64,000 nucleotides of DNA from Mangrovimonas yunxiaonensis. Lineage in GTDB: Bacteria > Bacteroidota > Bacteroidia > Flavobacteriales > Flavobacteriaceae. Under the pieces are notes generated by a model, which was not told where the DNA came from, did not search any database, and worked only from the letters and a program-made list of their open reading frames with translations. Numbering within the stretch: the stretch's first letter is position 1; each line of letters starts with the position of its first letter. Below are positions 8,938 to 38,298 of the stretch, piece after piece. The stretch spans positions 430,501 to 494,500 of the forward strand of contig NZ_JPFK01000007.1 in NCBI RefSeq assembly GCF_000733475.1, given 5' to 3'. The position numbers and the translations under genes were made by a program.

Positions 8938-9010
8938 ATGACATGGGCTGTTTTAAGTTTAAAAGCGTTTTCGTTTTACGATTCACCACTCACAACTCCC
9001 GTCTTGATTC
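8938..9010 (+). repeat. 73-bp direct repeat, copy 1
   Basis: Begins ATGACATGGGCTGTTTTAAG and ends CCGTCTTGATTC; identical by eye to 9353-9425. A shorter related copy of the first part (TCTGAATGACATGGGCT) is at 9096-9112. Confidence 0.95.
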
Positions 9011-9054
9011 TTAATACTTAATTCTTAATTCTTGCTTCTCACGCTTCACGCCTT
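8978..9054 (+). repeat. Heptad-register array (11 units), AATWCTT type
   Basis: Eleven consecutive 7-bp units in strict register, such as ACGATTC, ACCACTC, ACAACTC, GATTCTT, AATACTT, AATTCTT, GCTTCTC. Units vary but most end in CTT or CTC. The left part overlaps the 73-bp repeat. Confidence 0.75.
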
Positions 9055-9123
9055 TATTGTGTTTTTAAGAGATTCTTCGTTTCGCTGGCGCTCACTCTGA
9101 ATGACATGGGCTTTTTTTAGAGG

Positions 9124-9220
9124 GGTCTGAGCCCCGGCCCTAAAGGGGGAATCTTGTTTTGTTTTATTTATTTGAGAAGGTCTGAGCCCCAGCCCTAAAG
9201 GGGGAGTCTTGTTTTGTTTT
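9124..9220 (+). repeat. 42-bp tandem-like repeat pair
   Basis: Copies at 9124-9165 and 9179-9220 (start GGTCTGAGCCCC, end GTTTTGTTTT) differ at two bases. Each holds a CCCTAAAGGGGG stem followed by a T-rich run, so each could act as a weak terminator. Confidence 0.85.
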
Positions 9221-9352
9221 TTCTATTTTATTGTGTCTCTTTTTGCTGTTTTTTTCCGTTTTATACCTTCTTGCTTATTATGCTCTTTCTCCTTTTTCAT
9301 TAATAATCCTCCAATTTAATTATTAATATATTTCTCCTTTTGCAAACATAGG

Positions 9353-9425
9353 ATGACATGGGCTGTTTTAAGTTTAAAAGCGTTTTCGTTTTACGATTCA
9401 CCACTCACAACTCCCGTCTTGATTC
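9353..9425 (+). repeat. 73-bp direct repeat, copy 2
   Basis: Identical by eye to 8938-9010, 415 bp downstream in direct orientation. The sequence that follows again enters an AATTCTT/AATACTT heptad run. Confidence 0.95.
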
Positions 9426-9497
9426 CTGGCTCTTAATTCTTAATACTTAATTCTTAATACTTAATTCTTGCTTCTCACGCCACACAACCCACAACAT
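9393..9497 (+). repeat. Heptad-register array (15 units)
   Basis: Fifteen 7-bp units in one register: ACGATTC, ACCACTC, ACAACTC, CCGTCTT, GATTCCT, GGCTCTT, then AATTCTT and AATACTT alternating five times, then GCTTCTC, ACGCCAC, ACAACCC and ACAACAT. The array thus passes from the AATWCTT type into the ACAACCC type without losing phase. Confidence 0.75.
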
Positions 9498-10464: not shown

Positions 10465-10580
10465 AGTTATCAGTTATCAGTTATCAGTTATCAGTTATCA
10501 GTTATCAGTTATCAGTTTTCTGTTACAACCGACAACCGACAACCCACAACCGACAACCCACAACCGACAACCGACAACCG
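10465..10580 (+). repeat. Double heptad array: AGTTATC x7 then ACAACC[GC] x8
   Basis: 10465-10513 is seven perfect copies of AGTTATC followed by one altered copy (AGTTTTC); 10525-10580 is eight copies of ACAACCG or ACAACCC. The two halves are roughly complementary in orientation (GGTTGTC on the minus strand versus AGTTATC on the plus strand). The array ends 12 bp before the four-helix-bundle gene. Confidence 0.95.
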
Positions 10581-10592
10581 AAATAAAGAAAA

Positions 10593-10952
10593 ATGAAAAG
10601 TTATAAAGATTTAGAGGTTTATGTGTTAGCTTTCCAATATGCTATTGAAGTACACGAATTAACATTAAAGCTCCCTAAGTACGAACTTTACGAGCAAGGA
10701 AGTCAGTTGAGAAGATCATCTAAATCTATAAAAGATAATATTGTTGAAGGCTATGGGAGGCGTGGTTACAAGCAGGACTTTATTAAGTTTTTAGTGTATG
10801 CACATGCATCGCTTTTAGAATGTTTAAGCCAGTTAGAAATGATAGAGCAGTTATACGAATTAGACGTAAATGATTTAATTTCAAAATATGATGCCTTAGG
10901 AGCAAAAATATATAGTTTTAAAAATTATGTAGAACAACATTGGAAAGTTTGA
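10593..10952 (+). CDS. Four helix bundle protein (S23/IVP family)
   Basis: A 119-residue protein of the family first noted as 23S rRNA intervening-sequence proteins (TIGR02436/PF05635 type). Seen: the conserved SYKDLEVYVLAFQYA start, the central LRRSSKSIKDNIVEGYGR motif and the FIKFLVYAHASLLECLSQLE helix. The fold is four helices; molecular function is not established. There is no rRNA here. The gene is embedded between two heptad arrays and splits the wzm-wzt pair, suggesting it entered as a passenger with the repeats. More AT-rich than wzm and wzt. Confidence 0.9.
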   Translation: MKSYKDLEVYVLAFQYAIEVHELTLKLPKYELYEQGSQLRRSSKSIKDNIVEGYGRRGYKQDFIKFLVYAHASLLECLSQLEMIEQLYELDVNDLISKYDALGAKIYSFKNYVEQHWKV

Positions 10953-10968
10953 AGTTCTCAGTTAACAG

Positions 10969-11115
10969 ACAACCCACAACCCACAACCGACAACCCACAA
11001 CCCAAAACCGACAACCGATAACCGACAACCCGCAACCCACAACCGAAAACAGACAACCGAAAACAGACAACCCACAACCCACAACCGACAACCGACAACC
11101 GATAACCGACAACAG
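10969..11115 (+). repeat. Heptad array ACAACCN x21
   Basis: Twenty-one 7-bp units in unbroken register, mostly ACAACCC and ACAACCG, with ATAACCG, AAAACCG, GCAACCC and AAAACAG variants. It ends 6 bp before the TTG start of wzt. On the minus strand the array is (GGTTGTC)n-like and rich in GG pairs at regular spacing. Confidence 0.95.
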
Positions 11116-11121
11116 TAACAA

Positions 11122-12342
11122 TTGAAGAACAACGAACACAACATACAATCCGATAGGGAAGTCCTCGTAAAAGTAGAAAACCTCAGCAAAAAATTCTGCA
11201 AAGACCTCAAGACCAGCTTATGGTATGGTGTTAAGGACTTGGTAAGCGGGGTTCGTGGCAACAAGCACGAGCGCGAACTGCGCCCCAAAGAGTTCTGGGC
11301 GGTAAAAGATGTGAGTTTCGAGCTGCGCCGTGGGGAGTGTTTAGGCCTGATAGGGCATAATGGCGCAGGAAAAAGCACCCTGCTTAAAATACTAAACGGC
11401 CTCATTAACCCCGATGCCGGTAAAGTCACCATCAAAGGCCGTGTGGGGGCACTTATAGAGTTAGGGGCTGGCTTTAACCCCATACTTACAGGGCGCGAAA
11501 ACATTTATAACAATGGGGCGGTGTTAGGGTTTTCACGGCAAGAAATCACCCAAAAGCTAGACGACATTATTGCGTTTGCCGAGCTAGAGGACTTTATCGA
11601 TATGCCCGTACAACATTACAGCAGTGGCATGAAAGTACGCCTAGGCTTTGCGGTAGCGGCCCAAATGGAACCCGATGTCTTGATTATTGATGAGGTGTTG
11701 GCGGTGGGAGATTTAGGGTTTGTATTAAAGTGTTTTAAGCAAATTGATACTATTTTGCCCAACACGGCTATCGTATTTGTAAGCCATAGTATGCCTATGG
11801 TGTCCCGTATTTGTAACCAGATGATTTTAATGGAGCATGGAAAACCTAAGTTTCAAGGAACTAATGTTGCTAAAGGCATAGATTTGTATTATACGCGGTT
11901 TGCTAATAATGAAAGCAATGTGGTGTTTGATGATGGGAGTTTAGAGTTTTTGTCCCACAATTGCGATTTAGAACAAGGTCAAGTGTTGAGAGGACAAGAT
12001 ATAGGAATAAGCCTTTGTTTTGCTATAAAGAAAGGAGCTCTTAAAGTGGTACCTACCGTATATATGGAGATAAAGGATAAAGATTTAAGGCCTGTGGCAG
12101 GAGTGCAAAGTGGCCAAGAATCTATTGAGGTTAAAGATGCCAAGTATTTAAAGTATTATTTTACCATTAAAAACTCAATGTTTACACTAGGGGCTTATGG
12201 TATTGATATTAGTGTAAAAGATGCTGAAAGCAACAGCCCCATTTTGAGGGTGAACAATTTTATAAAATTTTCGGCTGTAGGAGATAAGAGTATGTGGGTT
12301 CCCTTTGAACTACAAACAGATGTAGCTGTAGAACTTAAATGA
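11122..12342 (+). CDS. wzt: ABC polysaccharide exporter ATPase with C-terminal glycan-binding domain (Wzt-like)
   Basis: Cytoplasmic ATPase of the Wzm/Wzt exporter (406 residues). Seen: Walker A GHNGAGKST near residues 79-87, signature YSSGMKVRLGFAVA near 166, Walker B VLIIDEVLAVGD near 188, and a C-terminal beta-sandwich region from about 250 to 406 typical of Wzt proteins that recognise the modified glycan end. TTG at 11122 is the only plausible start: an in-frame TAA lies at 11116 and no ATG or GTG precedes the ABC domain. The C-terminal third is visibly more AT-rich, suggesting exchange of the specificity domain. Confidence 0.93.
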   Translation: MKNNEHNIQSDREVLVKVENLSKKFCKDLKTSLWYGVKDLVSGVRGNKHERELRPKEFWAVKDVSFELRRGECLGLIGHNGAGKSTLLKILNGLINPDAGKVTIKGRVGALIELGAGFNPILTGRENIYNNGAVLGFSRQEITQKLDDIIAFAELEDFIDMPVQHYSSGMKVRLGFAVAAQMEPDVLIIDEVLAVGDLGFVLKCFKQIDTILPNTAIVFVSHSMPMVSRICNQMILMEHGKPKFQGTNVAKGIDLYYTRFANNESNVVFDDGSLEFLSHNCDLEQGQVLRGQDIGISLCFAIKKGALKVVPTVYMEIKDKDLRPVAGVQSGQESIEVKDAKYLKYYFTIKNSMFTLGAYGIDISVKDAESNSPILRVNNFIKFSAVGDKSMWVPFELQTDVAVELK

Positions 12343-23685: not shown

Positions 23686-23712
23686 TGTCATGCTGAACTT
23701 GTTTCAGCATCT
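23686..23712 (+). repeat. REP-like hairpin, upstream of GIY-YIG copy 1
   Basis: TGTCA followed by TGCTGAA-CTTGT-TTCAGCA (23691-23709) and TCT. Same motif as at 24143, 37765 and 37924, and inverse of the copy at 24062. Confidence 0.9.
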
Positions 23713-23765
23713 CTTTTATTTAAAACCAATTAATTTTTGTACTTTTTAAGTAAACACAAAAAAGC

Positions 23766-24023
23766 TTGAAGAGGACGTATCACAATTACTGGGTTTACAT
23801 TATAACTAATAAACCAAGAGGCGTCCTATACATAGGAGTAACAGGAGGGATTGATGATAGAATGGAGCGTCATATAAAGGGTGAAGGAGCCGCGTTTGCA
23901 AAAAAGTATAATCTTACTAGATTGGTGTACTATGAAGAATTTCAATATGTGGAAGATGCTATAAAACGAGAAAAGCAATTGAAAAATTGGCATCGAGGTT
24001 GGAAAATTAATTTAATCGAATGA
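23766..24023 (+). CDS. GIY-YIG nuclease domain protein, copy 1 (truncated)
   Basis: An 85-residue single-domain GIY-YIG protein of the UvrC/URI-like superfamily (metal-dependent nuclease fold). Seen: YHNYWVYIITNKPRGVLYIGVTG with the two Tyr of the motif, Arg in GIDDRMERH, and YYEEFQYVEDAIKREKQLKN with the metal-binding Glu. The start is TTG at 23766, with no ATG available. Compared with copy 2 (37965), a TGA replaces a Lys codon after LIE, and the conserved tail (NPxWxNLWKP) continues in frame beyond it. Bracketed by inverted REP-like hairpins at 23686 and 24062. Confidence 0.85.
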   Translation: MKRTYHNYWVYIITNKPRGVLYIGVTGGIDDRMERHIKGEGAAFAKKYNLTRLVYYEEFQYVEDAIKREKQLKNWHRGWKINLIE

Positions 24024-24061
24024 AATAATCCTAATTGGAAGAATTTGTGGAAACCTTTAGA

Positions 24062-24088
24062 CCCTGAAACCAGTTCAGGGTGACAGGT
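24062..24088 (-). repeat. REP-like hairpin in inverse orientation, downstream of GIY-YIG copy 1
   Basis: CCCTGAA-ACCAG-TTCAGGG followed by TGACAGG, the reverse complement form of the TGTCAnnCTGAACTTG element upstream of the gene. A degenerate further copy follows at about 24184-24203. Confidence 0.85.
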
Positions 24089-24169
24089 TTTAATTATATT
24101 TTGGCTAACTTTTGTTTCCGCACTTTCTTGTTAATAATTGTCTGTCATGCTGAACTTGGTTCAGCATCT
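24072..24169 (+). repeat. 98-bp REP-containing repeat, copy A
   Basis: Begins AGTTCAGGGTGACAGG and ends with the hairpin TGCTGAACTTGGTTCAGCA (24148-24166) plus TCT. Matches 37853-37950 at 96 of 98 positions by eye. Here it lies downstream of a GIY-YIG gene. Confidence 0.92.
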
Positions 24170-24223
24170 CTTAAAAGTTGTGAGACCCTGAACCAAGTTT
24201 AAGGTGATTTTATTTTTTGTAAT

Positions 24224-36378: not shown

Positions 36379-36448
36379 CATTGCGAACCAAGTGAAGCCA
36401 TCTGTTTATTACAACGCTAAAACAAAAAGATTGCCATACTTCAGTACC
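36379..36448 (+). repeat. Degenerate inverted repeat (ATTGCGA...AGCCATCT type)
   Basis: CATTGCGAACCAAGTGAAGC at 36379 and AGATTGCCATACTTCAGTAC at 36429 are partly complementary, resembling a decayed pair of the ATTGCGA/GAAGCAATCT short palindromes seen in many flavobacterial genomes. It directly precedes the heptad array. Confidence 0.55.
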
Positions 36449-36449
36449 A

Positions 36450-36568
36450 ACAACCGACAACCAACAACCAACAACTAGCAACCAACAACCAACAACCGAC
36501 AACCAACAACCAACAACCGACAACCAACAACTAACAACCAACAACTAACAACCAACAACAGACAACCA
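36450..36568 (+). repeat. Heptad array ACAACCN x17
   Basis: Seventeen 7-bp units in strict register, mostly ACAACCA with ACAACCG, ACAACTA, GCAACCA and ACAACAG variants. It ends 6 bp before the ATG of the next gene, the same distance as the array before wzt. Confidence 0.95.
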
Positions 36569-36574
36569 AACCCA

Positions 36575-37687
36575 ATGAAAAAAAACATCCTCATAGTCAC
36601 TTCCGAATTCCCACCCTTACCAGGAGGCATAGGAAACCATGCCCATCAGTTGGCCTTTCATTTGTCTCAGCAAGGGCATCAGGTCACGGTTTTGGCCGAT
36701 TACAGAACCTATGAGCAGCAAGAAGAAAGCCAGTTCGATCTTCAGCAGCCCTATACGGTTAACAGAATTTCTAGAAAAAAGAACCGCTGGTTAATGTACC
36801 TAAACCGAATTAAAAGCTATCGCCAAATGTACTCAAAAGCTGATGTGGTGCTAGCCTCAGGGAAGTTTTCACTTTGGTTGGTAGGCTTGGGGTCTGTAGG
36901 CTTTAAAAAACGCCCTAAATTAGCAGTTTTACATGGGACGGAGGTGAATTTTCAAAAACCACTGTTAAAATGGAGTATCAATCAAGCGTTAAGGCAATTC
37001 CATAAAGCCATTGCAGTGTCTCAGTTTACAGCCAACTTGGTAAAGAACTTACCTTTGGAGGTACAAATCATCCCCAATGGCATTACCTTGGAAGATTGGC
37101 AGCAGCAAAAAACCGTTCAAAAACGAGAGGAGCAGGATTTCCCCATTTTAATAACCGTTGGGAACTTAACCGAACGCAAGGGGCAGGCCAATGTAATTAA
37201 AATGATGCCACAGCTGTTAGAGCAGTACCCAAACCTTCGCTACGACTGTGTGGGGCTACCTACCGAATTAAAAGCATTAGAACAGCTAACTCACGAACTT
37301 GGCGTAGCCGAACGGGTACACTTCCATGGCCGATTATCAGATCAGGAGTTAAAAGAGAAACTCCTCCAAAGCGATGTGTTTGTAATGTTAAGCCAACAAA
37401 CAAGCGCCGGCGATGTAGAGGGGTTTGGCATAGCTATTTTGGAGGCCAATGCCTTGGGTATTCCAACCATTGGGGCTTTGGGGAGCGGGATAGAAGCGGC
37501 CATTGCACAAGGGAAATCAGGATTTTTAGTGCCTAATACAGATGCTCAAGCCTTTGAAAAAGCACTGCAAGCCATCTTAAAGGCCAAAGAGCAGTTCCGC
37601 CAAGGCGCTTTGCAACGAGCAGAAGCCCACAATTGGAAAGTAATTGTAAAACAGTATCTGGAGGTGATAGAGGCGTTGTTCGTTTAA
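36575..37687 (+). CDS. GT4 family glycosyltransferase
   Basis: GT-B enzyme, 370 residues. Seen: NILIVTSEFPPLPGGIGNHA (nucleotide-sugar GT4 N-terminus with the GGIG loop), LAVLHGTEVNFQKP, LITVGNLTERKGQANVIKMM, and DVEGFGIAILEANALGIPTI with the E-x7-E pair. Its start lies at the end of the heptad array, so the repeats form its leader. Confidence 0.93.
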   Translation: MKKNILIVTSEFPPLPGGIGNHAHQLAFHLSQQGHQVTVLADYRTYEQQEESQFDLQQPYTVNRISRKKNRWLMYLNRIKSYRQMYSKADVVLASGKFSLWLVGLGSVGFKKRPKLAVLHGTEVNFQKPLLKWSINQALRQFHKAIAVSQFTANLVKNLPLEVQIIPNGITLEDWQQQKTVQKREEQDFPILITVGNLTERKGQANVIKMMPQLLEQYPNLRYDCVGLPTELKALEQLTHELGVAERVHFHGRLSDQELKEKLLQSDVFVMLSQQTSAGDVEGFGIAILEANALGIPTIGALGSGIEAAIAQGKSGFLVPNTDAQAFEKALQAILKAKEQFRQGALQRAEAHNWKVIVKQYLEVIEALFV

Positions 37688-37764: not shown

Positions 37765-37791
37765 TGTCATGCTGAACTTGTTTCAGCATCT
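37765..37791 (+). repeat. REP-like hairpin
   Basis: TGTCATGCTGAACTTG followed by TTTCAGCATCT; hairpin TGCTGAA-CTTGT-TTCAGCA at 37770-37788. Same sequence as the element at 23686-23712. Confidence 0.9.
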
Positions 37792-37852: not shown

Positions 37853-37950
37853 AGTTCAGGGTGACAGGTTTTAATTATATTTTGGCTAACTTTTATTTCC
37901 GCACTTTCTTGTTAATAATTGTTTGTCATGCTGAACTTGGTTCAGCATCT
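37853..37950 (+). repeat. 98-bp REP-containing repeat, copy B
   Basis: Matches 24072-24169 with two differences by eye. Ends with the hairpin TGCTGAACTTGGTTCAGCA (37929-37947). Here it lies upstream of the GIY-YIG gene, whereas copy A lies downstream of one. Confidence 0.92.
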
Positions 37951-37964
37951 TAATTTTTAAGTTT

Positions 37965-38261
37965 GTGGTAAAGCGAGCCTATCATAACTATTGGGTCTAT
38001 ATTTTAACAAATAAGCCAAATGGAACACGTTATATTGGAGTGACGGGGGGTATAGATGATAGGATGGAAAGACATGTTGAAGGTAAAGGAAGCTCCTTTT
38101 TAGCAAAATATAAACTTAAACATTTAGTGTATTATGAGGAATTCCAATATGTGCATGAAGCCATAAAAAGGGAAAAGCAATTAAAAAATTGGCACAGACA
38201 ATGGAAAATTAATCTTATAGAGAAAGTGAACCCTGAATGGCAAAATTTATGGAAACCTTAG
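37965..38261 (+). CDS. GIY-YIG nuclease domain protein, copy 2
   Basis: A 98-residue single-domain GIY-YIG protein, full length by comparison with copy 1. Seen: YHNYWVYILTNKPNGTRYIG with both motif tyrosines, GGIDDRMERHVEGK with the Arg, YYEEFQYVHEAIKREKQLKN with the catalytic-type Glu, and the tail NPEWQNLWKP. Starts at GTG 37965, as no ATG is available. Enclosed by a REP-like hairpin at 37929-37947 and its inverse at 38274-38290. Single-domain members of this family are nucleases or DNA-binding proteins of mostly unknown role. Confidence 0.88.
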   Translation: MVKRAYHNYWVYILTNKPNGTRYIGVTGGIDDRMERHVEGKGSSFLAKYKLKHLVYYEEFQYVHEAIKREKQLKNWHRQWKINLIEKVNPEWQNLWKP

Positions 38262-38273
38262 CGTAGAAAAGAT

Positions 38274-38298
38274 CCTGAACCAAGTTCAGGATGACAGG
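38274..38298 (-). repeat. REP-like hairpin in inverse orientation, downstream of GIY-YIG copy 2
   Basis: CCTGAAC-CAA-GTTCAGG (38274-38290) then ATGACAGG; reverse complement form of the upstream element. Lies 12 bp after the stop of the GIY-YIG gene. Confidence 0.88.

Follow-up and report, generated by a model that had tools for sequence, protein, structure and literature searches.

The hairpins considered here are closest to the CGTC-tagged REPs (Di Nocera, 2013), for which the accessible text of the defining survey gives an unpaired CGTC or TGTC tag, a stem of 8-9 bp nearly always starting with AT, a loop of 4-5 nt and a short tail, mostly CCA (PMC3733652). The same text describes outward dimers, often made of two different sequences, and a distribution over five phyla including Bacteroidetes, and counts dRS3 of Neisseria and RPE-4 and RPE-6 of Rickettsia among these repeats; REPs are mostly intergenic, and many may act as RNA (PMC3733652). 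As far as this text goes, the CGTC repeats have no association with transposase genes and seemingly no dedicated transposase, and the 2013 survey, which raised the question of what spreads them, identified no enzyme (PMC3733652). Words beginning with GIY are absent from the accessible text of that source, and no publication linking GIY-YIG genes with REPs was found in the literature covered, with bioRxiv and most subscription journals outside this scope and an unseen report accordingly possible.

The second system relevant for comparison is REP/RAYT, in which REPs with a GTAG tag go with an IS200-like tyrosine transposase. The units described below resemble it in that short tagged hairpins surround the gene of a single enzyme, further copies lie elsewhere in the genome and several REP types follow the enzyme lineage; they differ in combining a YGTC tag with a GIY-YIG nuclease.

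Two REP-flanked GIY-YIG genes in a Mangrovimonas genome

The window, that is, the whole 64-kb stretch of Mangrovimonas yunxiaonensis DNA that was analysed, holds two units in which a small GIY-YIG gene lies between a hairpin and its inverse. Unit 1 opens with the hairpin TGTCATGCTGAACTTGTTTCAGCATCT, and the layout recurs in unit 2 (37924-38296). The features of both regions, in window coordinates, are the following:

23686..23712, + strand: left REP of unit 1, TGTC tag outward (sequence; hairpin; fold z -3.94)
23766..24023, + strand: GIY-YIG gene of unit 1, TTG start assumed (PF01541; translation)
24061..24085, - strand: right REP of unit 1, tag outward (sequence; fold z -2.46)
24072..24169, + strand: 98-bp segment, first copy, 98% identical to 37853-37950 (repeat comparison)
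24143..24169, + strand: left REP of a gene-less pair adjoining unit 1 (sequence; fold z -5.12)
24185..24207, - strand: decayed right REP of the gene-less pair (sequence; repeat family D20)
37765..37791, + strand: solitary REP upstream of unit 2 (sequence; 33 bp identical to the region of the unit-1 left REP)
37853..37950, + strand: 98-bp segment, second copy, consisting of half a REP, a linker and a full REP (repeat comparison)
37924..37950, + strand: left REP of unit 2 (sequence; fold z -4.87)
37965..38261, + strand: GIY-YIG gene of unit 2, intact, GTG start assumed (PF01541; translation)
38272..38296, - strand: right REP of unit 2 (sequence; fold z -4.24)

The proteins of unit 1 (85 codons) and unit 2 (98 codons) match the GIY-YIG domain PF01541 (E 7.5e-17 and 6.4e-16, respectively) and no other domain; in particular, no HUH/Y1 tyrosine transposase domain is matched in either. 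In both units, the hairpins have the form YGTCA-stem-loop-stem, with the unpaired TGTC tag facing away from the gene, and when folded as single-stranded DNA, five hairpins of the window and one of another locus in the same genome (L003) beat shuffled sequences, with z between -2.46 and -5.12. Sequence, domain match and folding bear out the preliminary description of this locus, which had reported a hairpin upstream and its inverse downstream of a small GIY-YIG gene, the same layout at a second site, and a parallel with REP/RAYT elements involving an unrelated nuclease. The part of that description that has to be qualified concerns unit 1, where the layout stands but the gene looks truncated, because an in-frame TGA (24021-24023) precedes the conserved NPxW end; past this codon, the frame continues to a stop at 24081-24083, within the right REP. 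The gene of unit 2 is intact in translation.

In the predicted folds, the window hairpins have stems of 8-9 bp and loops of 3-5 nt; their tails are CTC, CTT or CT, and one REP starts with AC, not AT. Judged by these features, and as a refinement of the preliminary description, the repeat fits the known superfamily of CGTC-tagged REPs except for the CT(C/T) tail and the single AC-starting arm. The units found here share with that superfamily the CGTC/TGTC tag, the stem usually starting with AT, the short loop and the occurrence of outward dimers and heterodimers; the window tails, however, are CT(C/T) where the survey gives CCA for most repeats, and an enzyme gene lies inside the REP pairs, whereas the published repeats are reported without a dedicated transposase.

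The 98-bp segment extends from the loop of the unit-1 right REP to the end of the next REP. Both bounds coincide with REP features, so a recent copying event has its ends there. Downstream of the segment lie gene 2 at the one site and, at the other, 15 bp and then the decayed REP, an arrangement that would be compatible with either direction of copying and with either gain or loss of the gene. No Rfam family was matched at gathering scores within the 64-kb window. Other repeats in the window are arrays of a 7-bp unit (ACAACCG/ACAACCA) at 10511-11156 and 36404-36609, 25 kb apart, and several repeat families at 8938-9454, including a 102-bp repeat (92% identical, 415 bp spacing).

The genome to which the window belongs (2.67 Mb) contains five GIY-YIG matches, namely the two units and the loci L003, L004 and L005. 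The pattern CTGAACTNGNTTCAG occurs in it 10 times, and its reversed control 0 times; six of the 10 sites are no more than 250 bp away from a GIY-YIG gene, and the zones around the five matches make up 0.14% of the genome (binomial P 1.3e-15, with the sites taken as independent though the two units are related). L003 has the same unit layout as the window with other stem sequences, such as GTCATCCTGCG..CGCAGGATCC, and L004 carries imperfect versions of the hairpin identified by eye, such as GTCATTGCGA..GCAATC. The flanks of L005, a partial GIY-YIG match, have no such hairpin.

Specific association of outward hairpins with GIY-YIG genes

The pairing of GIY-YIG genes and hairpins extends far beyond flavobacteria, a further refinement of the preliminary description. 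Two sets of loci were compiled. The wide set comprises 80 loci, the best 80 of 571 relatives found in a scan of 84,980 species genomes and chosen by protein only; according to the record titles, it covers Alpha-, Beta-, Gamma- and Deltaproteobacteria, Bacteroidetes, Chloroflexi, Nitrospirae, Nitrospinae, Elusimicrobia and candidate phyla. The flavobacterial set comprises 114 loci from 61 genomes, part of 209 matches at E 1e-6; 34 of these loci are best hits and 80 were picked by hand before their flanks were seen, with multi-copy genomes favoured. One of the 80 and two of the 114 loci were excluded for too little flank. To pass the strict test, a hairpin had to lie no more than 200 bp from the gene, carry a GTC tag and have a perfect stem of 8 bp or longer. 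Since shifted-window controls fall largely in coding DNA, the control consisted of the regions flanking neighbouring genes of these loci.

By the strict test, a hairpin accompanies 66 of 79 GIY-YIG genes of the wide set vs 29 of 356 other genes at these loci, and outward hairpins on both sides are found at 32/79 vs 0/356; a looser test gives 75/79 vs 45/356 for any hairpin and 43 vs 1 for both sides. In the flavobacterial set, the respective values are 47/112 vs 7/66 (any hairpin) and 29/112 vs 0/66 (outward, both sides) by the strict test, and 56/112 vs 15/66 and 29 vs 0 by the looser one. The enrichment of the palindrome beside these genes that the preliminary description had predicted is thus observed both in the family of the window and beyond it. 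The strict test detects no hairpin at 65 of the 112 flavobacterial loci and the looser one none at 56, so that half escape both tests; many of the 27 misses that were read by eye have imperfect or altered hairpins.

Among the 64 possible trinucleotide tags, GTC ranks first, clearly in the wide set (66, followed by TGG with 54, the complement of the CCA tail) and, narrowly, in the flavobacterial set (48, followed by GAG with 46, the complement of the CTC tail). GTC is preceded by C or T on 78 of 82 left sides and 80 of 82 right sides. The strict form with an AT-starting stem is present at 48 of 79 wide loci vs 0-2 of 66-74 per shifted control, and the CCA tail is common in the wide set; variants of the hairpin that lack the first AT pair or have long loops exist as well.

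Inspection by eye of seven named records from a plasmid collection revealed hairpins flanking the gene in Sinorhizobium, Azospirillum (where the unit sits between annotated sufB and sufC), Aeromonas and Neisseria, gene-flanking hairpins with imperfect stems in Planktothrix, a GTCGCC variant in Novosphingobium, and in Spirosoma a hairpin pair upstream and an imperfect hairpin downstream of the gene. A 50-kb stretch of Sinorhizobium pSymB considered for strain comparison was dropped, since it contained a single GTC hairpin and lacked REPs of the common type. In the genus of Rhodanobacter thiooxydans, all 15 other loci of the gene among those retrieved (L260-L274) have a strict REP within 400 bp, several of them apparently representing one orthologous site. 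A Rhizobium locus (L055, 1900-3333) contains two REP-GIY-YIG-REP units in tandem, and one genome (G164) has 14 DNA matches to this region.

The association does not extend to the related YhbQ family. YhbQ/UPF0213 proteins (structure 1zg2, the only solved relative found by sequence) have the domain and size of the unit nucleases, but among 30 YhbQ loci (the best 30 matches from 185 genomes of the class of Rhodanobacter), none has an outward REP pair and three have a single hairpin that is not REP-like. In an unrooted tree of 150 proteins (80 wide, 40 sampled flavobacterial and 30 YhbQ; 93 columns), all 30 YhbQ proteins fall on one side of a branch with 99/97 support, the bootstrap being not fully settled, and so form a separate clade. 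GIY-YIG enzymes cut by hydrolysis, with an active site that includes tyrosine, arginine and glutamate. Residues Y12, Y23, R33, H37 and E70 (unit-2 numbering) are invariant in 31 aligned proteins, and we take them to include those of the catalytic site.

REP type and protein type are inherited together. In the 83 units with both arms, the left and right arms are identical in 29 and differ on average at 1.35 of 8 positions, vs 3.64 between units. The covariation set consisted of units with at least one arm found (56 of 114 flavobacterial, 67 of 80 wide); REP arm distance and protein distance between genomes are correlated in the flavobacterial units (r 0.578; 0 of 2000 permutations) and in the wide ones (r 0.258; 3 of 2000), and when REPs were shuffled among units of one genome (28 units, 11 genomes), the observed value was reached in 0 of 2000 trials. 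Linked co-inheritance rather than recognition could be the cause of this covariation. The match between unit type and REPs across the whole genome is more telling. Type A REPs have a median of 9 in the 24 genomes with a type A unit vs 0 in 15 genomes with other units (p 5.5e-5), and type C REPs, by a text rule that also took in two other arms (G000, G107), which were left in, a median of 5 in 11 genomes vs 0 in 28 (p 8.4e-4); with the flanking REPs subtracted, p is 5.6e-4 and 8.2e-3, respectively.

At E 1e-6, matches to the nuclease are present in 90 of 149 genomes of the family, with up to seven per genome, and REP count and gene count are correlated (Spearman 0.50; one REP pattern, kinship ignored). 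At least three REPs are found in 44 of the 90 genomes with a match vs 4 of the 59 without, and 27 of the 90 gene-positive genomes have no match to the REP pattern. In one of the four match-less REP-rich genomes, G075, a profile search detected small GIY-YIG genes, whereas in G061, G139 and G052 (10, 14 and 3 pattern matches), it detected none, the profile matches lying in frames of at least 280 codons. Hence, 45 of the 48 genomes with at least three REPs have the gene and three do not, so the expectation of the preliminary description that palindrome-rich genomes possess the gene holds with these three exceptions.

Because the gene-between-repeats pairing recurs in many unrelated bacteria, the nuclease probably spreads the hairpin repeat. 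Judging from the sequences, we consider it likely that REP-gene-REP is an autonomous mobile unit of ~400 bp, with its GIY-YIG nuclease being the dedicated enzyme of the CGTC-tagged REP superfamily.

Occupied sites, empty sites and remnants

Orthologous sites with and without the unit, which the preliminary description had proposed to compare, were found at three places, along with remnants. The first is the trpB|trpA junction, flanked according to Pfam by the tryptophan synthase alpha chain and a PALP-family enzyme. Among 29 readable loci (from the best 30 TrpA hits of 142 genomes with a match, the query genome included), seven contain a unit (371-389 bp), eight have 0-11 bp between the genes, and at least four have gene-less REP pairs, the gene-less pairs and the gene-bearing units being found in different genera. 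In one genome (G063), two hairpins read by eye surround the apparent 3' end of a GIY-YIG gene, which points to loss of the gene from a unit. All seven units at this junction (L275, L278, L283, L286, L295, L299 and L302) have TTC-tagged hairpins in place of GTC, and for this reason fail the tag test; the TTC tag could reflect decay after fixation, as if the tag had been lost, or a different tag. In several flavobacterial genomes, the same junction harbours an unrelated gene-less palindromic element, GGCGTTACCGCAAGGGTCGGGCTTTC...ATCCCTAACGC (for example, L276, L279 and L285, and further L288, L293 and L300). Two other units (L033 and L037, from two genomes) have an aminotransferase gene on one side and a histidine-biosynthesis gene on the other (IGPD; Pfam on L033), and given this placement in the his operon, some copies look old and vertically kept.

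The second site, from the genus of Rhodanobacter thiooxydans, lies where two type I restriction genes with N6 methylase and specificity domains meet. The two genes overlap in G348 and G317, leaving the site empty, and are separated by a unit in G306 and G150 and by a relic in G343 and G344. The insertion in G306 has ATGAGTTTGCC at its left border and ATGAGCCTGCC at its right, 9 of 11 bp being alike, which suggests an 11-bp target duplication at this one site. Among 82 units, direct repeats of at least 10 bp within 60 bp of the ends number 10, vs 0.17 expected; the eight cases inspected are largely tandem arrays of REPs or units, and accordingly the excess was not taken as evidence of a target-site duplication common to all units.

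At the third site, a match through flank, unit and flank was obtained in G332 only, of 45 genomes searched. Both flanking genes are present in 23 of 29 other loci, 69-363 bp apart, with a GTC hairpin in two of the 23. Nine of these 23 loci (L307, L308, L315, L319, L321, L328, L329, L331 and L333), in the Rhodanobacter genus, contain GTAGGAGCG-type palindromes that resemble GTAG REPs, so these sites seem to be shared by two REP systems.

These sites bear on the strongest rival explanation, namely that a free-standing GIY-YIG homing endonuclease enters REP pairs that already exist and are spread by something else, cutting gene-less pairs and being copied into them by recombination. GIY-YIG is described as a classic homing fold in the accessible text of PMC1564403, and the unit proteins give weak matches to homing endonuclease profiles. 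The 98-bp left context common to the gene-less pair and unit 2 in the window would suit such a route, as would the coexistence of gene-less pairs and gene-bearing units at trpB|trpA in different genera, but this scenario has difficulty with the sites that have neither gene nor REP (two in the restriction operon, the eight trpB|trpA loci with 0-11 bp, and 21 of 23 at the third site), and the apparent gene end between the hairpins of G063 points to gene loss. The unit nucleases share the nuclease domain and selfish behaviour with I-TevI-type homing endonucleases; the profile matches, however, are weak and, where a cut-off is given, below it, the unit genes are flanked by their own repeats, and several empty sites lack a repeat. 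We regard homing into pre-existing pairs as unlikely and favour an autonomous mobile unit.

A candidate enzyme for CGTC-tagged REPs

Somewhat less probable still is the view that the REPs are merely hairpins of transcription or mRNA, or intergenic hot spots, with the gene moving by another route. The mostly intergenic position of REPs and the possible action of many as RNA, as given in the accessible text of PMC3733652, would agree with it, as would the reading frame of unit 1, which enters the right REP, and the seven operon-embedded units that keep hairpins but not the GTC tag. A role of this kind would not account for the lack of outward pairs at other genes of the same loci (0/356 and 0/66) and at YhbQ genes, nor for the fact that the best-scoring tag is unpaired and thus of no evident use to an RNA hairpin.

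GIY-YIG enzymes include the structure-specific SLX1, which would be in keeping with the least probable of the explanations, that the nuclease serves the host by resolving or removing REP hairpins, its gene being kept near its substrates by selection. Repair nucleases with this domain, such as UvrC, are described in the accessible text of PMC1564403, and some copies occupy one operon junction across several genera, but within the family a single genome can have as many as seven matches, and these numbers, the tandem units, the stop-bearing and partial copies and the scattered presence look like mobile DNA.

Under the preferred interpretation, a mobile unit with its own nuclease, the GIY-YIG enzyme would recognize and bind the REP hairpin, either extruded or single-stranded, for instance on the lagging strand, and would cut it by hydrolysis near the YGTC tag. 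Host repair or replication would then copy the segment enclosed by two outward REPs to a new place, mostly between genes, and gene-less REP pairs would be non-autonomous derivatives served in trans. This scheme differs from REP spread by tyrosine enzymes, which involves a covalent tyrosine intermediate, in the hydrolytic cutting proposed.

On balance, although with slightly less assurance than for the unit itself, we favour the broader proposal that this GIY-YIG lineage is the missing mobilizing enzyme of CGTC-tagged REPs in many phyla, and that it represents a second, independent and hydrolytic route of REP spreading, in which units of ~400 bp would be among the smallest self-mobile DNAs. With a protein of fewer than 110 residues and a 27-nt hairpin, the question of what spreads these repeats becomes directly testable. 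If the proposal is true, many genes annotated only as GIY-YIG nuclease family protein would acquire a function, REP systems would have arisen twice, with unrelated nucleases, and one mechanism could explain the spread of dRS3, RPE-4, RPE-6 and related repeats.
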